This document shows positions 15,438-28,885 of a stretch of DNA of 64,000 nucleotides, piece by piece. Made by a program: the position numbers and the translations under genes. The stretch is from Citricoccus sp. K5 (lineage in GTDB: Bacteria; Actinomycetota; Actinomycetes; Actinomycetales; Micrococcaceae): contig NZ_LR732817.1 of the NCBI RefSeq assembly GCF_902506195.1, forward strand, positions 2,240,245-2,304,244. The letters are read 5' to 3'. Every line of letters starts with the position of its first letter. The stretch's first letter is position 1. A model generated the notes under the pieces. It saw only the letters and a program-made list of their open reading frames with translations, had not been told where the DNA came from and made no database searches.

Positions 15438-16820
15438 ATGCTGACGATTCTGGGCTTCGCCACCATCGTGGTGTTCCTCGTGCTGACCATGACCAACCGC
15501 GTCTCGGTCCTCATCGGGCTGATCGCCGTGCCCGTGGTGGCGGCCCTGATCGGCGGCTTCGGCCCCCAGCTCGGGGAACTCTCCACCGAAGGCATCCTCC
15601 AGGTGACCCCCGTGGCGGTCATGATCACCTTCGCCATCCTGTACTTCAGCCTGATGATGGACGAGGGGCTCTTCGACCCGGCCATCCGCAGGATCCTGCG
15701 CTGGGTGAAGGGCGACCCGGCCCGCATCACCGTCGGCACCGCCGTCCTCACCATGCTGGTGGCCCTCGACGGCGACGGCGCCACCACCTTCCTCATCACC
15801 GTCTCCGCCATGCTGCCGCTCTACCAGCGCCTCGGCATGCGGCCACTGGTACTGGCCGGGGTGGTGGGCCTGTCCGCCGGCGTCATGAACATCCTGCCGT
15901 GGGGCGGCCCCACCGCCCGCGCCATGGCCGTGCTCGACGTCGGCATCGACGAGATCTTCATCCCGGTGATCCCCTCCCTGATCGCCGGCATCATCTGGAT
16001 CCTCGCCGTGGCCTGGTACCTGGGCCTGCGCGAGCGCCGCCGCATCGGGGTGGCCAGCCTGAGCGCCGAGGAGCTGGAGCTCGTGGTCGCCGGGGTGCGC
16101 GGCACCGGCGGAGGAGGTGCCGGGACCGGTTCCGGCGGCGGCTCGGCTGCCGCTGCTGATCTGGGGCACGACGGCGGCCCGGCCACCCGCCGCGCGACGC
16201 CCCGCTGGCGGATGGTCGCCAACCTCGTCCTGACCGTCGCCCTGCTCGCCGCACTGGTGGCCCACGTCCTGCCCCTGCACGTGCTGTTCATCCTCGGATT
16301 CGTCATCGCGCTGACCTACAACCGGCCGCGGTGGGCGGACCAGCAGCGTCTGCTGGAGGACCACGGCAAGGCCGTGCTGCTGGTGATCTCCATGATCTTC
16401 GCCGCGGGCATCTTCACCGGCGTGCTGGGCGGGACCGGGATGATCACGGCCATGGCCGACTCGCTGGTGGGCGTAATCCCCACCGGACTGGCCAACCTGC
16501 TGCCGTTGCTGACCGCGCTGACCAGCATGCCGATGTCCCTGATGTTCACCCCGGATGCCTACTACTTCGGCGTCCTGCCGGTGCTGGCTGAGACCTACGC
16601 GGCTTCCGGCGGGGATCCGTCCGCGATCGGCCGCGCCGCCATCATGGGGCAGATGACCACCGGCTTCCCGCTGAGCCCGCTGACCGCGGCCACCTTCATC
16701 CTGATCGGCCTGACCTCGGTCCAATTGGGTGAGCACCAGAAGTTCCTGTTCGGCTGGGCCTTCGGCACCACCCTCGTCATGACGGCCGTGGCGATCCTGA
16801 CGGGGGCGATCCCGCTGTGA
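15438..16820 (+). CDS. CitMHS-family metal-citrate/dicarboxylate:H+ symporter
   Basis: 460-aa polytopic membrane transporter of the CitMHS family, which imports citrate (or a similar carboxylate) complexed with Mg2+ or Ca2+. Conserved stretches include MISFAILYF-like VMITFAILYFSLMMDEGLFDP region, DGDGATTFLITVSAMLPLY and NILPWGGPTARA. A long cytoplasmic loop between the halves (about residues 210-255) carries an unusual Gly/Ala-rich low-complexity insert. The ATG at 15438 has AAGGAG seven bases upstream. It is divergent from a LysR regulator and followed by two AtuA-type genes, so the three probably form one operon. Confidence 0.88.
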   Translation: MLTILGFATIVVFLVLTMTNRVSVLIGLIAVPVVAALIGGFGPQLGELSTEGILQVTPVAVMITFAILYFSLMMDEGLFDPAIRRILRWVKGDPARITVGTAVLTMLVALDGDGATTFLITVSAMLPLYQRLGMRPLVLAGVVGLSAGVMNILPWGGPTARAMAVLDVGIDEIFIPVIPSLIAGIIWILAVAWYLGLRERRRIGVASLSAEELELVVAGVRGTGGGGAGTGSGGGSAAAADLGHDGGPATRRATPRWRMVANLVLTVALLAALVAHVLPLHVLFILGFVIALTYNRPRWADQQRLLEDHGKAVLLVISMIFAAGIFTGVLGGTGMITAMADSLVGVIPTGLANLLPLLTALTSMPMSLMFTPDAYYFGVLPVLAETYAASGGDPSAIGRAAIMGQMTTGFPLSPLTAATFILIGLTSVQLGEHQKFLFGWAFGTTLVMTAVAILTGAIPL

Positions 16821-16879
16821 ACAGCCCAGAATCCCCGAACCCCCCGAACGCCAAAGCATCGCTCGAGAAGGACCCCACC

Positions 16880-18241
16880 ATGACTCTGGACCGCTCCCCC
16901 ACCGTCCGGCTCGGAGCGGGCGCGGGCTTCGCCGGGGACCGGATCGATCCGGCCCTGGACCTCGCCGAACGGGGCGGGCTGGACTACCTCGTCTTCGAGT
17001 GCCTCGGCGAACGGACCATCGCCGCCGCCCACGCCCGGCGGCTCAGCAGTCCCGGCAGCGGCTACGACCCGCGGCTGCTGGCGCGGATGCGCGCCGTGCT
17101 GCCCGCCTGCCGCACCGCCGGGACCCGCATCATCACCAACAGCGGCGCCGCCGAACCCCTCGCGGCCGGCCGGGCCGTCGTCGAGCTCGCCCGGGACCTG
17201 GGCCTGACCGGGCTGAGGGTGGCCGTGCTGACCGGTGACGACGTCCTGGAGGCCGTGCGTAGCACCCGCCCCGTGGACGCCGAGACCGGCGAGCCCCTGG
17301 ACCTGGACGCCGCCGTCTCCGCCAACGCCTATCTGGGCGCTGAGGGGATCGCGGACGCCCTGGGTGAGGGCGCCGACGTCGTGATCACCGGCCGCGTCTC
17401 CGACCCGGCCCTGTACCTCGGTCCGCTGATGCACGAGCACGGCTGGTCTCCCGAGGACGTGGAATTGCTGGGACGCGGCACGTTGGTGGGGCACCTGCTC
17501 GAGTGCGCCGGGCAGTTGACCGGCGGGTACTTCGCCGATCCGGACACCAAGCCGGTCCCTGGCCTGGACCGGCTCGGCTTCCCCTTCGCCGATGTGGATG
17601 CCCAGGGCGAGGCGCTGTTCCAGAAGCTGCCCGGCACCGGTGGCCTGCTCACCCCGCAGACCTGCGCGGAGCAACTGCTGTACGAGGTGGACGATCCGGG
17701 CGCGTACCTGACGCCGGATGTGGTGGCGGACTTCTCCCGGGTCGCCTTCACCACGGCCGGGCCGGATGCGGTGCGCGCCACCGGGGCCACGGGGCGTACC
17801 CGGCCCTCACAGCTGAAGGTGACCCTCGGCTACCGGGGCGGATGGCTGGGCGAGGGGCAGATCTCCTACGCCGGCCCGCGCGCGCTGGAACGGGCACGGC
17901 TGGCCGGCGAGGTCGCCCGGGCACGACTGCACCGGGTCCATGGGCTGCCCGAGGAAGCGGTGGAGCTCGAATACATCGGGACCGGTGCGGCGTTCCGCGG
18001 CCTGGCCGCTGTTCCCGAGGCCCTGTCCAAGGCCCTGCCCGAGGTGCGGCTGCGGGTCAGCGCCCGCGTGGACGAGGAGCAGCAGGCCGCGGCGGTGCCG
18101 TGGGAGGTCGAGAGCCTGTACACGAACGGGCCGGCCGGCGGTGGCGGCGCCCGTGGATCCGTCACCGAGCAGGTCAGCGTGCGGTCCTGCCTGTTGGACC
18201 GCGACCTGGCCCCCTACACCACCACGATGCTGGAGGCATGA
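16880..18241 (+). CDS. AtuA-family (DUF1446) protein, acyclic terpene utilisation type
   Basis: 453-aa protein of the AtuA N-terminal (DUF1446) family. Typical stretches are LGAGAGFAGDRIDPA, DYLVFECLGERT, NAYLGAEGIADAL and ADVVITGRVSDPALYLGPL. AtuA is required for citronellol/geraniol breakdown in Pseudomonas, but its biochemical role is unresolved and family members occur in other acid-catabolic settings. The ATG at 16880 with GAAGGA seven bases upstream is preferred over a GTG at 16817 that overlaps the transporter stop. No other Atu or Liu enzymes are nearby, so terpene use should not be assumed. Confidence 0.85.
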   Translation: MTLDRSPTVRLGAGAGFAGDRIDPALDLAERGGLDYLVFECLGERTIAAAHARRLSSPGSGYDPRLLARMRAVLPACRTAGTRIITNSGAAEPLAAGRAVVELARDLGLTGLRVAVLTGDDVLEAVRSTRPVDAETGEPLDLDAAVSANAYLGAEGIADALGEGADVVITGRVSDPALYLGPLMHEHGWSPEDVELLGRGTLVGHLLECAGQLTGGYFADPDTKPVPGLDRLGFPFADVDAQGEALFQKLPGTGGLLTPQTCAEQLLYEVDDPGAYLTPDVVADFSRVAFTTAGPDAVRATGATGRTRPSQLKVTLGYRGGWLGEGQISYAGPRALERARLAGEVARARLHRVHGLPEEAVELEYIGTGAAFRGLAAVPEALSKALPEVRLRVSARVDEEQQAAAVPWEVESLYTNGPAGGGGARGSVTEQVSVRSCLLDRDLAPYTTTMLEA

Positions 18242-20175: not shown

Positions 20176-21111
20176 CTACCGTTCGCCCGCAGGGTAGTAC
20201 CTCGGGCTGGTGGACAGGACTTCTGCGGCCTGGCGCAGGAAAAGCTGGACCCGTTGGCTATGATTCCGATGTCCCGGCGTGACCGCCACGATGTCCAGTG
20301 CCTCGGGGTGGCCATCCAGTTCCACGGCGGCATAATCGAGTCCTTCCAGGCTGGCCATGTGCCTGGCCCTCTGGCTGAGCAACGAGCACCCCAGCCCCTG
20401 AGCGACCAGCCCCCGCAACACCTCGAAGCTGGCGGTGCGGAACCGGACTGTGGGGGTCAGTCCAGCGGCCGAGAACAGGGACAGGAAATACTCACCGGCG
20501 GGTTCGAGATCGAAAAGAATGAATGGTTCCTGAGCCAGATCCGCCAAGGAGACCTCCCCCGCCGTGGCCCGGTGGTGTTCTGCAGGAAGCAGTGCATAGG
20601 GCCGAACGGATCCCAAAGGCACCACGTTGCCCACCTCCGTCAGCTGGTCACCGAACCGGTAGTCATACATCACCGCCACGTCACATTCGCCCTTCATCAG
20701 CTGACGTAGCAGGTCGCTGCGGGATCCCTCGGAGAACCGAATGTCGATGGCCGGGTGGGATTCCGCGAACTCGGCCACGAGGCGAGGCATAAGGACCGGG
20801 GCGATGGTGGCATAGCAGCCGATGTGCAAGGTCCCTGTGAGTTCCTGACCCAGCCGCCCGGCATTGCGTTCAAGGTTGTCCACATCCCTCAACAGCTGCC
20901 GGGCATGCGCCAGGAGCGACTGGCCGTCCCGGGTCAGCACCAGTCCCCGCGCCTGCCGGATGAACAGTTGGACTTTCAGCGCCTTCTCCAGATCGGAGAC
21001 GGCCGTGGACACCGCGGACTGAGAGAGATGGAGTTGCTGGGCAGCGGCCGTGACCGTGCCGAGTTCAGCGACCGCCGCAAAGTGCTCCAGTTGCCTGAAG
21101 GTGATGGTCAT
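20176..21111 (-). CDS. LysR-family transcriptional regulator (paralogue of 22718-23632)
   Basis: 311-aa LysR regulator with the N-terminal helix-turn-helix (LEHFAAVAELGTVTAAAQQLHLSQSAVSTAVSDLE region) and an effector domain. It is clearly related to the LysR protein at 22718-23632: both share the FILF/LILL-x-YFLSxF-x-A-x-L-x-P block and FEV(L/V)R-x-(L/M)VA-x-G-x-G. It lies just downstream of the MHS transporter on the same strand (106-bp gap). The pair probably regulates the transporter and the oxygenase-aspartase operon. Confidence 0.88.
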   Translation of the reverse strand: MTITFRQLEHFAAVAELGTVTAAAQQLHLSQSAVSTAVSDLEKALKVQLFIRQARGLVLTRDGQSLLAHARQLLRDVDNLERNAGRLGQELTGTLHIGCYATIAPVLMPRLVAEFAESHPAIDIRFSEGSRSDLLRQLMKGECDVAVMYDYRFGDQLTEVGNVVPLGSVRPYALLPAEHHRATAGEVSLADLAQEPFILFDLEPAGEYFLSLFSAAGLTPTVRFRTASFEVLRGLVAQGLGCSLLSQRARHMASLEGLDYAAVELDGHPEALDIVAVTPGHRNHSQRVQLFLRQAAEVLSTSPRYYPAGER

Positions 21112-21217
21112 TCCCGGCTCCTCGGTCAGGAGGTGGACGTCTGGACATGGACCGACCCGGCCGTCGACGAGGCGTCAACAGCCGGGTTCAGGGGCCCGTA
21201 TCCAGCGTAGGGGCAGG

Positions 21218-22591
21218 CTAGGCCCGGGCGGTGTCCGGCTTCGCCTCCTCCGAGTCCTTCGAGGAAACTCCCGCCGGAGCTCGGTCAGAATCATGCAGCA
21301 GGTCCACCCCGCGGGTCTCGGGCATGGTGTACAGGGTCACTAGGCCGATCAATCCGACGACCATCAGGGTGAAGGCCGGCACCATGTTGTTCCCCGTGAG
21401 ATCGATCAGCCAGGTGTTGATGTAGGGCAGCGTGCCGGCGAAGAACGCCCCGGCGATGCTGTACGCCATAGAGAGACCGCTCTGACGCGTGCGCGTGGGG
21501 AAGAGCTCGGCGACCGTCACAGCATGGGTGCCCAGAATGAGAGCCAGGATGGCGGCCAGCCCGAAGGTGGAGAAGAAGCCGGCCAGCACCGAACCCTGGT
21601 TCATCAGCATGAAGAGCGGGTAGGAACCCAGGATTAGCAGGATGCCGGCGGCCACGAGGACGGGCTTCCGGCCGACTCGGTCGGAGACGATGCCGGACAG
21701 CGGGATGATCGCGATGGCCGTCAACGAGGCGACGGCGGACAAGACGGCTGCCTGGTCGTTGGGCATCCCGACCAATTGTTCCTGGTAGGTGATCAGGTAG
21801 ACCAGCACCACGTAGAACGTGCAGTTCATGAAGATCTCGATGCCAATGGTCTGGAAGAACTGCTTGCTGTTGTGGCTGAAGACCTCCCGGATGGGAGCGG
21901 ATGACACGGTATCCAGCTCCTGCAAGGCCTGATATTCCGGGGTGTCCTCGATCTTGAGGCGAATGTAGAGGCCCACCAGGGCGAGCGGCACCGTCAGCAG
22001 GAAAGGAATGCGCCAGCCCCAGGCGAGGACCTCCGCCGGGTCCAGCCAGAAATGGAGGCCCGCGACCACCAGGGATGCCAGCAGGAATCCGAGGACGGAG
22101 CCGAACTCCAGCCACGAGACGCCCAGACCGCGCCGTTTGGTGGGTGCGTACTCGGCCAGGAAGGCTGCAGCCGAGCCGAACTCGCCGCCGGCCGCGATCC
22201 CCTGGATGACGCGGGCCACCACCAGCAGAATCGGGGCGAGAATGCCGATTGAGTCATAGGAGGGGATCAGACCTAGCAGGAGAGTGCCGGCGGCCATGGT
22301 GACGATCACGATCGACAGGGTCTTCTTGCGCCCGTACCGGTCCCCGAGGTGGCCGAAGATGAGGGACCCGATGGGTCTCACGAAGAAGGCGACGGCGAAG
22401 ACCGCGAAGACCGACAGCAGACCCGCTGCCCCGTCCTGAGAGGGGAAGAAGATGACCGCGATCGTGGTCGCCAGATAGGCGTAGATCGCCCAGTCGAACC
22501 AGTGGACCAGGACGCCGATGGCCCCGGCGACGACGTTGCGTTTGAGTCCTGTCTTGGCGACCTGGCGGTCGGCTTCGGAAGTGCGGGACAT
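21218..22591 (-). CDS. MHS-type MFS transporter (metabolite:H+ symporter)
   Basis: 457-aa 12-segment transporter of the major facilitator superfamily, metabolite:H+ symporter group (ShiA/KgtP/ProP-like). The loop 2-3 signature is GHLGDRYGRKKTL, and the MHS-typical RVIQGIAAGGEFGSAAAFLAEYAP follows. Substrates of the group are organic acids, betaines and aromatic acids. The ATG at 22589-22591 is chosen because GGGAG precedes it; an earlier in-frame ATG at 22636 adds an untypical head. It is divergent from a LysR gene and next to a catabolic operon, so it probably imports that operon's substrate. Confidence 0.88.
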   Translation of the reverse strand: MSRTSEADRQVAKTGLKRNVVAGAIGVLVHWFDWAIYAYLATTIAVIFFPSQDGAAGLLSVFAVFAVAFFVRPIGSLIFGHLGDRYGRKKTLSIVIVTMAAGTLLLGLIPSYDSIGILAPILLVVARVIQGIAAGGEFGSAAAFLAEYAPTKRRGLGVSWLEFGSVLGFLLASLVVAGLHFWLDPAEVLAWGWRIPFLLTVPLALVGLYIRLKIEDTPEYQALQELDTVSSAPIREVFSHNSKQFFQTIGIEIFMNCTFYVVLVYLITYQEQLVGMPNDQAAVLSAVASLTAIAIIPLSGIVSDRVGRKPVLVAAGILLILGSYPLFMLMNQGSVLAGFFSTFGLAAILALILGTHAVTVAELFPTRTRQSGLSMAYSIAGAFFAGTLPYINTWLIDLTGNNMVPAFTLMVVGLIGLVTLYTMPETRGVDLLHDSDRAPAGVSSKDSEEAKPDTARA

Positions 22592-22650
22592 GGTGTTCTC
22601 CCTTGATCGGGTGGGTAGTGCCCAGAAGCTTGGCAATCAGGCTAAGTCTG

Positions 22651-22663
22651 TGAGTGGTGTCAC
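22651..22663. promoter_or_regulatory. Possible LysR half-site in MHS transporter promoter
   Basis: TGAGTGGT at 22651-22658 is identical to the complement of ACCACTCA at 23751-23758 in the oxygenase-operon promoter. It lies in a GTGA-N6-TCAC dyad (22650-22663), about 60 bp upstream of the transporter start. An eight-base match can occur by chance, so this is a lead only. Confidence 0.3.
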
Positions 22664-22717
22664 TACCATCGATATCTTTCGAGAGGCACCTCACTAAAAC
22701 CGAAACCTCGGGTAGCT

Positions 22718-23632
22718 ATGCTCGTGGCCATGGCGAATGCTCCGTCCGACCTCACACTCAACCAAGTGAGGTACTTCGTGCGCGTTGCGGAGCTCGGCTC
22801 CATGACGGAAACCGCCGCCGAGATGTTCGTCGCGCAGTCGGCGATCTCCACGGCCATCGCGCACCTGGAGACCACCCTCGGCCACAAGCTGTTCGTCCGC
22901 CAACGCTCGCGCGGAGTGGTCCTGACCGAGCAGGGCACCACGTTCTATGCGGCCGCACAGACCATCCTCCGATCCGTTGACGATGCGGTCCATTCCCTCA
23001 GTCCCGAGCGACTCACGGGGCAGCTGGCAGCCGGATGCTTCACCACCCTGGCCCCCTTCTGGCTGCCCACGGTCTACGAGGGCCTGACCTCGGCCCACCC
23101 GGCACTCGACGTCCGGCTCCGTGAAGTCACCGGCGACCAGGTGGAGCAGCTCCTCCTCCGCCGGGAACTGGAAGTGGCACTGACCTACAGCTTCGACTAC
23201 GGCCGCAGCATCGACTTCGAACGGCTCAGCGAAGCGCCGGTATATGCGGCCGTGGGGGAAGGCAGCCATCTGGCCGGCCGCTCCACGGTGTCGCTCGAAG
23301 AGCTCGCTGACGAACCACTCATCCTGCTGAACATGGGCAAAAGCGCCAACTACTTCCTGTCGATCTTCCAGGACGCACACCTGCAGCCCCGGGTCCACGA
23401 GAGGTTCGAGAGCTTCGAGGTGGTGCGCTCCATGGTGGCTCGCGGCCACGGATACACCATCCTGAACCAGCGCCCCGCTCATGACCTCACCAACGACGGC
23501 GGCCGCATCGTGCGGCTGCCCATCGATGGCGTGCGCTCGTACTTGCAGATCGGTGTGGCACATCGCGCCGACGAGACGCTGTCCCGTAAGGGTCAGGTCT
23601 TCATCGAGGCATGCCGCTCGATCCTCGGCTGA
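22718..23632 (+). CDS. LysR-family transcriptional regulator
   Basis: 304-aa LysR regulator with helix-turn-helix near residues 13-70 (VRYFVRVAELGSMTETAAEMFVAQSAISTA region) and a two-lobed effector-binding domain. It is divergent from the MHS transporter and 181 bp upstream of the FAD monooxygenase gene, so it is well placed to control both. The start is ambiguous between ATG 22718 and ATG 22730 in the same frame. Its effector domain resembles that of the LysR protein at 20176-21111. Confidence 0.88.
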   Translation: MLVAMANAPSDLTLNQVRYFVRVAELGSMTETAAEMFVAQSAISTAIAHLETTLGHKLFVRQRSRGVVLTEQGTTFYAAAQTILRSVDDAVHSLSPERLTGQLAAGCFTTLAPFWLPTVYEGLTSAHPALDVRLREVTGDQVEQLLLRRELEVALTYSFDYGRSIDFERLSEAPVYAAVGEGSHLAGRSTVSLEELADEPLILLNMGKSANYFLSIFQDAHLQPRVHERFESFEVVRSMVARGHGYTILNQRPAHDLTNDGGRIVRLPIDGVRSYLQIGVAHRADETLSRKGQVFIEACRSILG

Positions 23633-23678
23633 TCGGTCATGGCAGCGGATCCCCGTGAACGATGCAGTGCGCGTCATT

Positions 23679-23703
23679 GGATCTGATTTTCCGATGCAGA
23701 TCC
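23679..23703. terminator. Inverted repeat downstream of LysR gene
   Basis: GGATCTG (23679-23685) and CAGATCC (23697-23703) are exact complements across an 11-base loop, 47 bp after the LysR stop. It may be a weak terminator that insulates the regulator from the following operon, or a second binding site. No T-tract follows. Confidence 0.35.
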
Positions 23704-23744
23704 TCACTTACGAGTATTTGATATCGACCTGAGCCCTCCGGAGA

Positions 23745-23759
23745 CTGAGTACCACTCAG
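23745..23759. promoter_or_regulatory. Candidate LysR box (T-N11-A dyad) before the oxygenase operon
   Basis: CTGAGT-ACC-ACTCAG is a perfect 15-bp dyad and contains the T-N11-A pattern expected of LysR-type binding sites. It lies 55 bp upstream of the FAD monooxygenase ATG at 23814 and just after the LysR gene, a good position for control by either LysR protein of this cluster. Confidence 0.5.
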
Positions 23760-23813
23760 CAGCGAAAACCGTGGTCCTCATCACTCGGTGGGGTCAGTCA
23801 ACCGGAGGTATGC

Positions 23814-25121
23814 ATGTCGACCCAAGACACCGAGGTACTCATCGTGGGGGCCGGCCAGGCCGGCGTGGCCATGAGCGAACATCTGACCGGCCGGGGTGTC
23901 CCCCACCTCGTCCTGGAACGCCACCGCATCGCCGAACGGTGGCGGACGGAGCGGTGGGACTCCCTGGTCGCCAATGGTCCGGCCTGGCACGATCGCTTCC
24001 CGGGCATGGAGTTCGCGGACGTCGGACCGGACGGTTTCGCCACCAAGGAGCAGGTGGCCGACTACTTGGCCGCCTATGCGGAGCGCTTCGACGCACCGAT
24101 CCGCACCGGCGTGGAAGTCACGGCAGTCCGCAAGAACGAGGGCCGGCCGGGGTTCACAGCAGAGACGTCCATCGGCACCATGCAGGCCCGCTACGTGGTG
24201 GCAGCCACCGGTCCCTTCCAGAAACCCGTCATCCCCGCCGTGGTCCCGGAGGGTTCCGGCCTCACACAGATGCATTCGAGTTCCTACCGCAACCCCGGGC
24301 AGCTGTCCGAGGGCGGTGTGCTGGTGGTCGGCGCCGGTTCCTCCGGCGTGCAGATCGCGGCCGAACTCCAGGACGCCGGACGGCAGACCTACCTGGCCGT
24401 GGGGCCCCATGACCGGCCCCCGCGTAGCTACCGCGGCCGCGACTTCGTGTGGTGGCTGGGCGTGCTGAACAAGTGGGAGGCCTCCGCGCCGCCGCAGGGC
24501 GCCGAGCACGTCACGATCGCCGTCAGTGGCGCCCGCGGCGGGCACACGGTGGACTTCCGCGACCTGGCCCACAGTGGCATCACCCTCGTGGGCCGGGCCA
24601 ACTCGTTCCAGGACGGCGTCATGCACTTCGGTGCAGACCTCGTGGAGAACATCGCCCGTGGCGACGCGAACTACCTGGCCCTGCTCGACGAGGCCGACGA
24701 GTACATCGCACGCAACGGCCTGGACATGCCCGAGGAGCCGGAGGCCCGCCACCTCGGGGCCAGCCCTGACTGCGTTGAGCATCCTCTGCGAGAACTCGAC
24801 CTGGCGGCCGCTGGCGTCAACTCGATCGTCTGGGCCACCGGGTTCTCCGTGGACTACGGCTGGTTGCACGCGGATGCCTTCGATGAGAACGGCAAGCCAG
24901 TGCATCAGCGCGGCGTCTCGGCAGAGCCCGGGGTGTACTTCCTGGGGCTGCCCTGGCAGTCCCGCCGCGGCTCCAGCTTCATCTGGGGCGTCTGGCATGA
25001 CGCCAAGTACCTCGCCGACCACATCGCCATCCAGCGTGACTACAGCGCCTACCGCCCCTCTGTACCACCCACCGCGGGGGATGCTGCCGCGCGGCCGGTC
25101 TCGGCCAGCGTCGGCGCCTGA
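23814..25121 (+). CDS. Flavin-containing monooxygenase-like NAD(P)/FAD oxidoreductase
   Basis: 435-aa class B flavoprotein monooxygenase-like enzyme. The FAD-binding GAGQAG motif is at residues 12-17. A second Rossmann motif for NADPH (VVGAGSSGVQIA) lies near residue 170, and ATG motifs (VVAATGPF and VWATGFSVDYGWL) link the domains. Such enzymes oxygenate nitrogen, sulfur or carbonyl carbon atoms of small molecules, or act as YUCCA-like decarboxylases. The ATG at 23814 has GGAGG six bases upstream. It is the first gene of a run leading to RidA, DUF1028, M20 hydrolase and aspartase, which suggests it carries out the first oxidative step of a nitrogen-compound pathway (inference). Confidence 0.85.
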   Translation: MSTQDTEVLIVGAGQAGVAMSEHLTGRGVPHLVLERHRIAERWRTERWDSLVANGPAWHDRFPGMEFADVGPDGFATKEQVADYLAAYAERFDAPIRTGVEVTAVRKNEGRPGFTAETSIGTMQARYVVAATGPFQKPVIPAVVPEGSGLTQMHSSSYRNPGQLSEGGVLVVGAGSSGVQIAAELQDAGRQTYLAVGPHDRPPRSYRGRDFVWWLGVLNKWEASAPPQGAEHVTIAVSGARGGHTVDFRDLAHSGITLVGRANSFQDGVMHFGADLVENIARGDANYLALLDEADEYIARNGLDMPEEPEARHLGASPDCVEHPLRELDLAAAGVNSIVWATGFSVDYGWLHADAFDENGKPVHQRGVSAEPGVYFLGLPWQSRRGSSFIWGVWHDAKYLADHIAIQRDYSAYRPSVPPTAGDAAARPVSASVGA

Positions 25122-25172
25122 CCACACTGTCCGCACCCCATCACCGCTTGAGTCCACCAGGAGAGCACACCC

Positions 25173-25595
25173 ATGAAGTACACGCGCATCCGTCCGTTCA
25201 ACACCAAGGACACCTACCCGGAACAGAACCTCGACAACGACCTCTGCCAGGCGGTGGTGGCCGGAGGTGTGGTCTATCTGCGGGGCCAGATCGGGCAGGA
25301 CCTGGACACCCGCGAGTCCGTGGGCGTCGGGGACGTCGAGGCCCAGACGGTCAAGGCCATGGACAACATCAAGATGCTTCTGGAGGAGGCCGGCGGCGAG
25401 ATGGAGGACATCGTCAAAGTGACCGTGTACCTCACGGATGTCCGCTACCGCGAGACCGTCTACCGGACCATGGGCACCTACCTCAAGGGGGTCTTCCCCG
25501 TCTCCACCGGGATCGTGGTCCAAGCGCTGGCCCGCCCGGAGTGGCTCGTGGAGATCGACGCCACCGCCGTACTGTCCGAGGAGGGCTCCAAGTGA
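25173..25595 (+). CDS. RidA-family protein (enamine/imine deaminase-like)
   Basis: 140-aa YjgF/YER057c/UK114 family protein. RidA enzymes speed hydrolysis of reactive enamine/imine intermediates to ketone and ammonia. The C-terminal ALARPEWLVEIDATAV stretch contains the arginine expected at the catalytic Arg105 position of canonical RidA, and VTVYLTDVRYRETVY is also characteristic. The N-terminus departs from the consensus, as in pathway-specific members. It follows the monooxygenase by 51 bp and its TGA overlaps the GTG of the next gene (GTGA), so it acts within this operon. Confidence 0.88.
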   Translation: MKYTRIRPFNTKDTYPEQNLDNDLCQAVVAGGVVYLRGQIGQDLDTRESVGVGDVEAQTVKAMDNIKMLLEEAGGEMEDIVKVTVYLTDVRYRETVYRTMGTYLKGVFPVSTGIVVQALARPEWLVEIDATAVLSEEGSK

Positions 25596-26263
25596 CCTTC
25601 TCCATCGCCGGCACCGATGGGTCCGGCCGGTTTGGTATGGCCGTCTCCTCCTCCTCCCCCGCCGTGGCAGCGCGGTGCATCCACCTGCGCGACGGGGTGG
25701 GGGCCGTGAGCTCGCAGAACATCACCGATCCCCGGCTCGGCGACGCCCTGCTCACCCTGCTCGAGGAGGGCCATCCGGCCAGCGAGGCGATGGAATCCCT
25801 GGTGACCGGAGAATCTACCCGGGAGTACCGCCAGCTCGTGGTCCTGGATGCCGCCGGCCGCGCCGCCGTGCACAGCGGCACCCACACTTTGGGCACCCAT
25901 GCCGCAGCTTCCGGGGCCGGCTGCGTCAGCGCCGGCAACATGCTGGCGAACGAGGACATCCCGCAGGCCGCCTGCGAGGCGTTCGCCCGCACCAGCGGGG
26001 AGCTGGAGACCCGGTTGCTGGCCGGGCTCGTGGCCGGAGTGGACGCCGGCGGCGAAGAGGGACCCGTCCGCTCGGCCGGCCTCTCCGTGGTTTCTGGCCA
26101 CGGTTGGCGGGACACCGACCTGCGCGTGGACTGGCACGAGGACCCGGTCGGCGAACTCGGCCGACTGCTCGAGGTCTGGTTGCCGCAACGGGAGGACTAT
26201 GTGGTCCGCGGCCTGGACCCGGCAGCCTCCATCGGATACGGGGTGCCCGGTGACGACCGCTGA
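25592..26263 (+). CDS. DUF1028 family protein (Ntn-hydrolase-like)
   Basis: 223-aa member of DUF1028. Typical stretches are TFSIAGTD near the N-terminus, GRFGMAVSSSSPAVAARC, GAVSSQNITDPRLG and GAGCVSAGNMLAN. The family resembles Ntn-hydrolases in fold and has no settled reaction; members often sit next to RidA and M20 peptidase genes. The start is GTG at 25592, overlapping the RidA stop; the frame is open farther upstream, but only the overlapping GTG gives the normal family N-terminus. Its own stop lies inside the first codons of the M20 gene (14-bp overlap). Confidence 0.85.
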   Translation: MTFSIAGTDGSGRFGMAVSSSSPAVAARCIHLRDGVGAVSSQNITDPRLGDALLTLLEEGHPASEAMESLVTGESTREYRQLVVLDAAGRAAVHSGTHTLGTHAAASGAGCVSAGNMLANEDIPQAACEAFARTSGELETRLLAGLVAGVDAGGEEGPVRSAGLSVVSGHGWRDTDLRVDWHEDPVGELGRLLEVWLPQREDYVVRGLDPAASIGYGVPGDDR

Positions 26264-27416
26264 CACCGCCGAGTCCCGCGATTCTGCGGAGTCCCGCGTC
26301 CGTGCCCGGGTCCGCGATGAGGCGCCGCAGCTAATCGCCCTGTCCGAACGGCTGCACGCCAACCCTGAGCTCGGGTGGCAGGAACATCAGGCGGCCGCGT
26401 GGACAGCGACCGCCCTGGCCGCGTCCGGCTTCGAGGTCACCCGGAACTACCTCGACTTCCCGACGGCGATCCGCGCCGTGGCAGGGAACGGCCGCCATCG
26501 CATCGGCCTGATGGCCGAATACGACGCGTTACCCGGCCTGGGGCATGCCTGCGGACACAACATCATCACCGCGACCTCGGTCGGCGCGGCCATCGCGCTG
26601 GCCGAGGTGGCCGAGGAACGCGACCTGACCGTCGAGGTCTATGGCACACCGGCCGAAGAGGGCGGCGGCGGCAAGATCGAGCTGCTCAAGAAGGGAGCCT
26701 TCGCCGGCCTGGCCCTGGCCATGATGGCCCATCCCAGCCCCGTGGACTCCGCAGAGGCCCGGCCTTACGCGGTCTCGCATTCCCACATCAGCTATCGCGG
26801 GAAGTCGGCCCATGCTGCGGCTTACCCGCACCGGGGCATCAACGCCAACGACGCCTTCATCATCGCGCAGGTCTCGCTCGGTCTGCTGCGGCAGCAATTG
26901 CCGACCGGAACCCGGGTGCACGGGCTGCAGACGCGCGGTGGCGAGGCCCCCAACGCGATCCCCGAGACCACCGAGGGCCGCTGGTATGTCCGCGCAGAGA
27001 CCCTGGACGACCTGCAGGAGCTGCAGGAGCGGGTGGAGCGCTGCTTCGAGGCAGGCGCCCTGGCCACGGGCGCCGAGCTGAGCATCTCGCCCGAGTCCGA
27101 ACCCTATTCGGAGTTTCGCACAGACGAGCGCGCGCTCGAACTATACGTGAAGCACGCCCGCGCTCTCGGCAGGACCTTCGACGCCCCGCCGGAGCAGGCG
27201 ACCATGAACCGCGCCTCCACGGACATGGGCAACGTGTCCCAGGTGGTGCCGGCCATCCACCCCTACATCGGCCTGGGATGCTTCCCGGCCTCGAACCACC
27301 AGCCGGAGTTCGCGGCCCACTGCGTGGGCGAGGCCGCCAACCGGGCCATCACGGACGGTGCCACCGCCTTGGCCCTCACTGCGATCGACTACATCGCTGA
27401 ATCAGGACGGTCATGA
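26250..27416 (+). CDS. M20-family amidohydrolase (AbgB/IAA-conjugate hydrolase-like)
   Basis: 388-aa zinc aminoacylase/carboxypeptidase of the M20D type. Metal-binding motifs are seen in LGHACGHNI and YGTPAEEGGGGK, and the dimerisation domain lies in the middle. Relatives split amides of amino acids, such as p-aminobenzoyl-glutamate (AbgB) or indoleacetyl-amino acids (ILR1-like). A GTG at 26250 is the start, inside the end of the DUF1028 gene. Its TGA overlaps the aspartase ATG (ATGA). Release of aspartate or a related amino acid for the next enzyme is a reasonable but unproven inference. Confidence 0.88.
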   Translation: MTTADTAESRDSAESRVRARVRDEAPQLIALSERLHANPELGWQEHQAAAWTATALAASGFEVTRNYLDFPTAIRAVAGNGRHRIGLMAEYDALPGLGHACGHNIITATSVGAAIALAEVAEERDLTVEVYGTPAEEGGGGKIELLKKGAFAGLALAMMAHPSPVDSAEARPYAVSHSHISYRGKSAHAAAYPHRGINANDAFIIAQVSLGLLRQQLPTGTRVHGLQTRGGEAPNAIPETTEGRWYVRAETLDDLQELQERVERCFEAGALATGAELSISPESEPYSEFRTDERALELYVKHARALGRTFDAPPEQATMNRASTDMGNVSQVVPAIHPYIGLGCFPASNHQPEFAAHCVGEAANRAITDGATALALTAIDYIAESGRS

Positions 27417-28840
27417 GCATGGAGCACCAGATGCCGGACGACTCCGGGCAGACCACCCGAACCGAACGCGACAGCCTGGGCGTCCGGGAGGTGCCCCGGG
27501 ACGCCTACTGGGGAATCTCCACGCTGCGGGCGGTGGAGAACTTCCCCATGACTGGGCGAGGCGTCGGCACGCTGCGCTCGATGGTCTGGGCCCTGGGAGC
27601 TGTCAAGCACGCCGCAGCCACCGCGAACGAGGAGCTGGACCTGCTTCCCGCCACGGTGGCACAGGCGATCCGTGCGGCCGCCGGGGAGGTGATGGACGGC
27701 CTGCACGACGACCAGTTTATCGTCGACCTCATCCAGGGCGGTGCCGGAACCAGCACGAACATGAACGCGAACGAGGTCATCGCCAACAGGGCATTGGAGA
27801 TCCTCGGCCGCACCAAGGGCGACTACGCGGTGCTCCATCCAATCGACCACGTCAACCGCAGCCAGTCCACCAACGACGTGTATCCGACGGCGGCGAAGAT
27901 GGCGTTGGCGGTAGAGATCCAGAGTCTCCTGGCCGAGCACCGGCTCCTCAGTGAGGCCTTCGACCGCCGGGCCGATGAGTTCAAGGGGATCTACAAGGTC
28001 GGACGTACCCAGCTGCAGGATGCTGTGCCGATGACTCTCGGCCAGGAGTTCCGGGCCTTTGCGGCCACCTTGCGGGAAGACCACGCCCGGCTCGGAGAGT
28101 TCCGGGAGTACCTGCTCGAGACCAACCTCGGGGCGACCGCCATCGGCACCGGCATTACCGCCTCCCCGGACTACCGCCAGCTGGTGGTCAGTGAGCTGCG
28201 ACAGATCAGTGGACTTCCTTTGGTCTCCGCTGAGAATCTAATGGAAGCCACGTCCGACGCCGGCGTCTTCATCCTGATCTCCGGCATGCTCAAGCGTGCG
28301 GCGGTCAAACTCTCTAAGATCTGCAACGATCTTCGGCTACTGTCCTCCGGACCCCAGGGCGGCTTCGGTGAGATCACCCTGCCAGCCGTGCAGGCCGGTT
28401 CCTCGATCATGCCCGGCAAAGTCAATCCGGTGATTCCCGAGGTGGTCAACCAGGTCGCCTTCCGCGTGGTCGGCGCCGACGCTGCCGTGACGATGGCCGT
28501 GGAAGCGGGGCAACTGCAGCTCAACGCCTTCGAGCCGATCATGGTCCACGAGTTGTTCGAATCTGTTGCGCTCCTGACCAGCGCCTGCCGCCAACTGCGG
28601 ATTCGGTGCGTCGAGGGCATTGAACCGAACAGGCCCGCCTTGGCCGCACGCATGCACGAGTCGGTCAGCATGGTGACCGGCCTGGCGCCTCATCTGGGGT
28701 ATGGGAAAGCGGCCGAACTGGCCAAGGCCGCCCTGCTGGAGCATCGGAGCATCCTCGACGTCGCCCAGGAGAGCGGCCTACTTAGCCGTGAGGAATTGGA
28801 CCGTGCCTTCGACTTGGCACTGTTGGCCAATGACCGGTAG
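27413..28840 (+). CDS. aspA: Aspartate ammonia-lyase-like enzyme (aspartase/fumarase family)
   Basis: 475-aa aspartase/fumarase-superfamily lyase. The signature GSSIMPGKVNP is near residue 323, and GGAGTSTNMNANEVIANRAL and HPIDHVNRSQSTNDVYPTA match aspartate ammonia-lyase more than fumarase. The reaction expected is L-aspartate to fumarate plus ammonia. An unusual substrate (N-substituted aspartate) is possible, because aspartase relatives such as EDDS lyase do this. The gene is last in the operon, overlaps the M20 gene by 4 bp and is followed by a strong hairpin. Confidence 0.88.
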   Translation: MSMEHQMPDDSGQTTRTERDSLGVREVPRDAYWGISTLRAVENFPMTGRGVGTLRSMVWALGAVKHAAATANEELDLLPATVAQAIRAAAGEVMDGLHDDQFIVDLIQGGAGTSTNMNANEVIANRALEILGRTKGDYAVLHPIDHVNRSQSTNDVYPTAAKMALAVEIQSLLAEHRLLSEAFDRRADEFKGIYKVGRTQLQDAVPMTLGQEFRAFAATLREDHARLGEFREYLLETNLGATAIGTGITASPDYRQLVVSELRQISGLPLVSAENLMEATSDAGVFILISGMLKRAAVKLSKICNDLRLLSSGPQGGFGEITLPAVQAGSSIMPGKVNPVIPEVVNQVAFRVVGADAAVTMAVEAGQLQLNAFEPIMVHELFESVALLTSACRQLRIRCVEGIEPNRPALAARMHESVSMVTGLAPHLGYGKAAELAKAALLEHRSILDVAQESGLLSREELDRAFDLALLANDR

Positions 28841-28857
28841 GGCTCCTGCTCGGCCCT

Positions 28858-28885
28858 GGCCGGCTCTCTCAAGGGAGCATCGGCC
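28858..28885 (+). terminator. Intrinsic-type terminator after aspA
   Basis: An 11-bp stem with a two-base bulge (GGCCGGCTCTC, loop TCAA, then GGGAGC and CGGCC) spans 28858-28885, just 17 bp after the aspartase stop. There is no T-tract, which is common in high-G+C actinobacteria. It separates the catabolic operon from coaA. Confidence 0.6.

Follow-up and report, generated by a model that had tools for sequence, protein, structure and literature searches.

We analysed a stretch of 64,000 nucleotides from the genome of Citricoccus sp. K5 (hereafter the window; positions 2,240,245 to 2,304,244 of a contig of 3.74 Mb, in a genome of 3.88 Mb). The block at 20176–28840 of this window very probably represents the actinobacterial form of the lower histamine pathway, comprising homologues of hinFLHG and hinI, by which imidazole-4-acetate would be converted to fumarate, ammonia, and formate. 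We estimate the probability of this reading at about 0.86, on the basis of gene content and order, homology, predicted fold, and conserved residues.

Five genes on the forward strand form the core of the block. The first (23814–25121) encodes an FAD monooxygenase (FMO) homologous to HinF and predicted to be an imidazoleacetate 4-monooxygenase (EC 1.14.13.5). After a gap of 51 bp comes the gene for a RidA-family imine/enamine hydrolase, the HinL homologue (25173–25595; PF01042). It is followed, with successive overlaps of 4, 14, and 4 bp, by the genes for a DUF1028 protein with an Ntn-hydrolase-like fold, the HinH homologue (25592–26263, GTG start; PF06267, 203.6 bits), for an M20 amidohydrolase in the place of hinG, predicted to be an N-formylaspartate deformylase (26250–27416, GTG start), and for an aspartate ammonia-lyase, the HinI homologue (27413–28840). 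The monooxygenase, RidA, DUF1028, and amidohydrolase genes are contiguous, in the order F-L-H-G. Arthrobacter ERGS1:01 shares this order, as does Ideonella, where argE takes the last place. On the reverse strand lie a HinK-like LysR gene (LysR 1, 20176–21111; Pfam HTH_1 and LysR_substrate) and the gene for an MHS-family transporter, a candidate importer of imidazole-4-acetate (21218–22636). A second HinK-like LysR gene (LysR 2, 22718–23632, forward strand) is divergent from the latter. Open reading frame and family calls confirmed the positions of all these genes and the overlaps of the last four, as given in the original prediction, which had been made from the nucleotide sequence. That prediction had also noted a strong hairpin after the last gene. 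The stem exists (28858–28885, forward strand), but its strength was overstated: the 89-nt stretch that holds it had a folding z score of -1.47, 13 of 200 shuffled versions folded equally well, and a terminator-pattern scan gave no match at the stem, which is a possible but unremarkable terminator. An AtuA-family protein (PF07287, 473 bits) encoded at 16817–18241, upstream of the cluster, was taken as a non-member.

The original paper on the hin pathway is that of de la Torre (2018), cited here at second hand. Other descriptions are cited here from excerpts of the papers. According to these, Pseudomonas putida U needs hinABCD, hinFLHG, hinIJ, and hinK, of which HinFLHG convert imidazole-4-acetate to aspartate and HinK is a LysR protein responsive to imidazoleacetate, and PA5393–PA5390 of P. 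aeruginosa correspond to hinF-L-H-G (PMC8231116). HinF has been labelled an FAD monooxygenase (EC 1.14.13.5), HinL an enamine deaminase, HinH an amidase, HinG an amidase (EC 3.5.1.8), and HinI an aspartate ammonia-lyase (PMC6467879), while a route from histamine through imidazoleacetate to N-formyl-aspartate was proposed in 2008 (PMC2542419). The window shares with the Pseudomonas systems the enzyme classes, the F-L-H-G order, a HinK-like LysR protein, and aspartase as the last enzyme. Unlike them, it has its aspartase gene attached to the operon, carries genes for an MHS transporter and for two LysR proteins, and lacks adjacent hinABCD-type genes. The pathway, announced as undescribed in the original prediction, thus matches the published hinFLHG/hinI (PMC8231116, PMC6467879); DUF1028, whose role was said to be unknown, already has a published place as HinH, under the label of amidase.

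A further comparison was with the putative histamine catabolism cluster of Brevibacterium, three strains of which can use histamine as their only source of carbon (Anast 2019, PMC6467879); transcripts of the Brevibacterium genes have been detected in cheese, at a low level (PMC8921697). In the loci of B. permense (L155) and B. antiquum (L159), we found the order AspA, FMO, LysR, RidA, DUF1028, M20, MHS, and aldehyde dehydrogenase (ALDH). Assuming steps of five, this agrees with the intervals between the published locus tags of HinI, HinF, HinL, HinH, and HinD in the three strains (10895, 10890, 10880, 10875, and 10860 in L261). The tag expected for the clustered M20 protein (10870 in L261) is missing from Table 3 of that paper (PMC6467879), and the excerpts cited make no mention of this M20 gene, which occupies the HinG position. 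The enzymes and the MHS protein of the window were 53–84% identical to the Brevibacterium copies (80–84% for RidA, 68% for FMO), and the LysR proteins 36–41%; the FMO was also 71–72% identical to the copies of Acetobacter and Ideonella. The two systems draw on one set of gene families, with MHS and a clustered M20 among them. They differ in that the Brevibacterium cluster contains an aldehyde dehydrogenase and is arranged differently, and in that the window carries a pair of LysR genes and has its aspartase gene directly behind that of M20.

The nearest NCBIfam model of the window FMO was TIGR04046 (MSMEG_0569 flavin oxidoreductase), with 359 bits, below the curated cut-off of 498.35. The lyase exceeded the cut-off of NF008909 (681.6 bits for 510) and fell short of that of the equivalog model TIGR00839 (616.6 for 681.2). 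Its best named solved relatives were aspartases, which ranked after two unnamed fumarate-lyase entries, and its identification as a fumarase was ruled out by the family scores and by alignment.

From these homologies the following scheme can be proposed. The MHS transporter would import imidazoleacetate, which the FMO would convert to imidazolone acetate, as published for HinF. RidA and DUF1028 would share the opening of the ring and the removal of the imine nitrogen to give N-formylaspartate, from which the formyl group would be removed by M20, or by DUF1028 itself, and aspartase would finally yield fumarate. One or both of the HinK-like LysR proteins would respond to imidazoleacetate. As far as homology goes, the original prediction was right to see here a catabolic operon served by a transporter and LysR genes of its own, in which oxidation comes first and an imine is removed. 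The cleavage of an N-substituted aspartate and the flow of aspartate through fumarate into the tricarboxylic acid cycle also hold by homology; the substrate cleaved would, however, be an N-formyl compound derived from the ring rather than an imported conjugate.

Further evidence came from the neighbourhoods of related DUF1028 genes. The window DUF1028 protein served as query and all loci were chosen by DUF1028, so that the counts show the companions of this gene, not how common the set is. In the family, 15 of 120 genomes had a match, approximately full-length and at least 57% identical in 11 (own genome included), and there was none in the six other congeners among the family genomes. In the class, where at most 7 candidates were scored per genome and partial matches such as that of genome G241 were left out of the counts, 103 of 394 genomes had a match, and only 22 (own included) an approximately full-length one at 48% identity or more; the weaker ones were taken as paralogues. 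The nearest named relatives were from Micrococcaceae. Neighbourhoods of up to 20 kb were collected from 10 family and 20 class genomes (G502 left out) and from four paralogues, along with 80 named loci, the top-ranking ones among at least 589; removal of 7 duplicates from the 110 loci so obtained left 103. Within 10 kb, RidA was present in 102, M20 in 91, FMO in 88, LysR in 85, ALDH in 59, aspartase in 43, MHS in 40, NCS1 permease in 31, copper amine oxidase in 22, class III aminotransferase in 18, a TMADH/OYE-like protein in 14, and an HpaB-type monooxygenase in 7, as raw counts uncorrected for the background rates of common families (LysR, ALDH, and the other upstream-type genes). The gene order, which the original prediction had proposed to look for elsewhere, recurs widely: RidA, DUF1028, and M20 formed an unbroken run in 89 of the 90 loci in which both partners shared the strand of DUF1028. 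When 1.5-kb flanks were compared, none of the ten other window proteins tried had a match in 12 loci of more distant DUF1028 paralogues, while 31 Hin-type loci had RidA and M20 in all cases, FMO in 21, and aspartase in 16. The association of the gene set is thus beyond chance. It was the neighbours in related loci (amine oxidase, aldehyde dehydrogenase, and amine- or nucleobase-type permeases) that suggested histamine. An FMO 65–78% identical to that of the window was found in 21 of the 22 copper amine oxidase loci, and a plasmid of Arthrobacter sp. ERGS1:01 carries, in this order, ALDH, primary-amine oxidase, TetR, LysR, FMO, RidA, DUF1028, M20, and aspartase.

Some more distant loci had other compositions. 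A SAR11 single-cell genome (L154, 1–5870) and an uncultured alphaproteobacterium (L158, 8346–14266) contained a minimal set of FMO, RidA, DUF1028, ALDH, and an OYE/TMADH-like protein, with no M20 gene in the stretches available; these sets hint at an oceanic use of histamine or imidazoleacetate. A RidA match was found in 25 of 40 alphaproteobacterial loci, which had been fetched at lower identity too, so the RidA partner is not universal outside the Hin-type set. HpaB was near RidA-DUF1028, with FMO unseen, in 15 of the 40 (L214, L215, L219, L221, L223, L225–L227, L229–L232, L235, L236, and L239), and the HpaB-RidA pair was present twice in L232, L236, and L239. The IncF plasmid pKP2_3 of Klebsiella pneumoniae (L300, 7562–9848; one record) carries a RidA-DUF1028-argE module, with no annotated FMO; the adjacent genes are of the ABC-transporter, quinone-oxidoreductase, and GST types. 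Among plasmid records, Klebsiella accounted for 104 of the 230 that matched DUF1028 at an E value of 1e-30 and for 476 of the 722 that matched the window FMO at 1e-60; 615 of these 722 best matches were less than 60% identical.

The two LysR proteins of the window are, judging by their sequences, paralogous, as had been predicted (34.6% identity over 298 amino acids). The best solved relatives of LysR 1 were 3fzv (E value 2.0e-55) and 6m5f (2.4e-55), the next one scoring 8.4e-31, and the same two structures came first for LysR 2 (5.3e-52 for 6m5f, 6.2e-52 for 3fzv, next 1.4e-25). 6m5f is entitled HinK of P. aeruginosa, and 3fzv is a putative LysR regulator of the same species. An AlphaFold model of LysR 2 (pLDDT 90.5) had HinK as its best Foldseek match (about 33% identity; 3fzv also about 33%), while both proteins fell far short of the curated NCBIfam LysR models. 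These similarities suggest that one or both probably sense imidazoleacetate.

The M20 protein scored above the cut-off of TIGR01891 (188.5 bits). Its best solved relatives were a Xaa-Arg dipeptidase (E value 1.5e-64) and HmrA (1.7e-55), compared with 3e-9 for the plant IAA-amino-acid hydrolase. In the Ideonella, Acetobacter, and Klebsiella plasmid records, one member of the set bears the annotation ArgE. The ArgE-type proteins of Ideonella and Klebsiella exceeded the cut-off of TIGR01892, whereas the Arthrobacter M20 protein matched only TIGR01891. The window protein is unlike the ArgE-type protein of these three proteobacterial plasmid clusters, with which, rather than with the sequence of Pseudomonas HinG, the comparison was made. 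This suggests that actinobacteria use a different branch of the M20 family for deformylation, provided that this gene is the one responsible for it.

The transporter scored 399.4 bits with TIGR00883 (metabolite/H+ symporter), below the cut-off of 443.45; a homologue with an identity of at least 40% lay within 10 kb in 40 of the 103 related loci. Since the genome lacks a copper amine oxidase and an ALDH more than 40% identical to the cluster type, and since the MHS gene is divergent from that of LysR 2, it would appear that imidazoleacetate itself is taken up, perhaps by the MHS protein, and is the likely food, while growth of the strain on histamine is doubtful. Genes for the upstream steps were absent within 10 kb in 22 of the 40 loci with MHS (at least 50% identity), compared with 16 of the 63 without it (Fisher p = 0.003), and copper amine oxidase was absent from 8 of 11 MHS-bearing genomes, compared with 3 of the 20 others of checked MHS status (G502 excluded). 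The idea that MHS substitutes for the histamine-oxidising genes was nevertheless not retained, as this is a raw association to which several genomes of one group contribute and to which the tree gives no support; it is only a lead.

Several points weigh against the assignment to the hin pathway or parts of it. Identity with HinK is low, and few LysR structures have been solved. The window M20 protein gave no clear BLAST match with four ArgE-type proteins from proteobacterial clusters (best E value 0.002 over 47 residues), and HinG of Brevibacterium has been assigned to EB834_09805, outside the cluster (PMC6467879, in the excerpts cited). The link to the Hin proteins of P. putida and P. aeruginosa is an indirect one, drawn through the Brevibacterium loci and printed identities. 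Aspartase was near DUF1028 in only 43 of the 103 loci. As to growth on histamine, a search with PF01179 revealed no copper amine oxidase in the genome, and the best of its 19 aldehyde-dehydrogenase-like matches was 40% identical to the cluster type. Finally, tree-aware pairs did not support the link between MHS and the missing upstream genes.

The same chemistry might serve another imidazole or N-heterocyclic acid. The RidA-DUF1028 pair is not bound to one substrate, as an HpaB-type monooxygenase accompanied it in 7 of the 103 loci (in the alphaproteobacterial loci, HpaB in 16 of 40 and FMO in 3 of 40), and as no gene for a monooxygenase lay within 8 kb of it on the Klebsiella plasmid. We nonetheless find a different substrate improbable here, given the high identity of the window FMO to the copies in 21 copper amine oxidase loci, the HinK-like regulators, and aspartase as last enzyme. 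The original prediction had envisaged that a conjugated aspartate, for example indoleacetyl-aspartate, is taken up and cleaved. This would account for the joint presence of M20 and aspartase, which fit an N-acyl-aspartate, and IAA-amino-acid hydrolase is a distant M20 relative. By the E values given above, Xaa-Arg dipeptidase and HmrA are much closer to M20 than that hydrolase is, such a scheme offers no obvious task for the monooxygenase or RidA, and the published homologues work in histamine catabolism, so that we regard this proposal as very improbable.

It is also conceivable that the strain degrades histamine completely, the first two steps being catalysed by unlinked genes. This is compatible with the assignment of the block to the lower histamine pathway, and the odds of the two overlap. 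The 19 aldehyde-dehydrogenase-like matches leave room for it. We consider it possible yet on balance unlikely, because neither a copper amine oxidase nor a close ALDH was found (no search was made in this genome for an aminotransferase or a TMADH-like enzyme) and because the transporter of the cluster belongs to a carboxylate-type family.

The DUF1028 protein was studied in more depth. In a Foldseek search, an AlphaFold model based on 31 sequences (pLDDT 93.1) matched 2imh, another DUF1028 protein, with a TM score of 0.81; the significant matches listed after it were subunits of the proteasome and of Anbu (E values 1e-4 to 1e-3, TM scores 0.35–0.45), so that in the model the protein looks remotely like an Ntn-hydrolase. 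Conserved residues were compared in 103 Hin-type, 28 hut-type, 12 paralogous, and 43 further, mostly alphaproteobacterial, sequences. Thr2 was present in all of the first three sets and in 42 of the 43 further sequences. Arg28 was invariant in the Hin-type, hut-type, and further sequences and absent from all 12 paralogues. Glu155, found in all Hin-type and hut-type and in 42 of the 43 further sequences, was replaced by Asp in the 12 paralogues. Position 43 was Asn in all 103 Hin-type sequences, His in all 28 hut-type ones, and Ser or Ala in the paralogues; of the further sequences, 34 had Asn, 8 had His, and one had Ala. Thr2 would become the N-terminal residue once Met is removed, and it is the predicted nucleophile. 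In a quick tree of 168 rows, the paralogues were separate (SH-aLRT 90), and the Hin and hut labels were strongly clustered without forming single clades.

The hut-type sequences came from an alphaproteobacterial order represented by genome G798, in which hutC and hutF lie beside hutI-hutH-hutU-DUF1028, with no match to RidA, M20, or FMO at the locus. Among 30 close relatives of the G798 protein (L267–L296, 1.5-kb flanks), hutU was on the same strand, no more than about 200 bp upstream, in 22, all of them among the 28 relatives with at least 78% identity. The DUF1028 protein behind hutU belongs to a sister branch, which has Thr2, Arg28, and Glu155 like the Hin branch and differs from it at position 43. 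HutG reached the curated cut-off in 1 of the 76 genomes of this order, all of which had some weaker match, and deformylation is thus the sole step without a clear enzyme. As this lack holds with or without a hut-type DUF1028, it gives only modest support to the replacement of hutG by DUF1028. In two Rhodospirillales or proteobacterial loci from metagenome-assembled genomes (L106 and L114), RidA and DUF1028 lay beside hut genes with hutG present. The idea, derived from these loci, that DUF1028 and RidA replace hutI and hutF was weakened by genome G508, which has full-score HutI and HutF on one contig; in genome G509, of only 2.4 Mb, neither had a full-score match. An equation of Asn43 with histamine and His43 with histidine was not clean, as 7 of the 8 His43 loci had no hut gene among the queries and L106 and L114 have Asn43.

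A tentative hypothesis is that the Hin and hut DUF1028 proteins are Ntn deformylases, acting on N-formyl-aspartate in the Hin branch and on N-formyl-glutamate in the hut branch. Thr2 would be the nucleophile, Arg28 would hold the carboxylate of the substrate, and the residue at position 43 would adapt each branch. We consider this rather unlikely, our confidence having been lowered because His43 was found in 7 DUF1028 loci without a hut gene. If true, DUF1028 would take over from HutG in those histidine operons that have hutI and hutF and no hutG of curated level. The opening of the ring would then be left to RidA, M20, or spontaneous hydrolysis, and the published division of work between HinH and HinG would need revision.

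The pathway described here is an ordinary one, and its composition is a variant, with a differing M20 enzyme and presumed entry through a carboxylate-type transporter. Among open-licence PubMed Central papers, we found no report that the full set, complete with M20 and MHS genes of its own, is widespread in actinobacteria, nor any of the Ntn/Thr2 reading of HinH or of a link between hutU and DUF1028; the name DUF1028 brought up none of these papers. According to the excerpts cited, hin genes were once held to be absent from Gram-positive bacteria (PMC8231116) and have since been reported in Brevibacterium (PMC6467879). Our analysis gives the widespread RidA and DUF1028 module a named chemical setting in actinobacteria and suggests a different M20 enzyme as the occupant of the deformylase slot there. 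It also yields claims that can be tested: the uptake of imidazoleacetate by the MHS protein, catalysis by Thr2, and the role of Arg28 and position 43 in distinguishing the Hin and hut branches.

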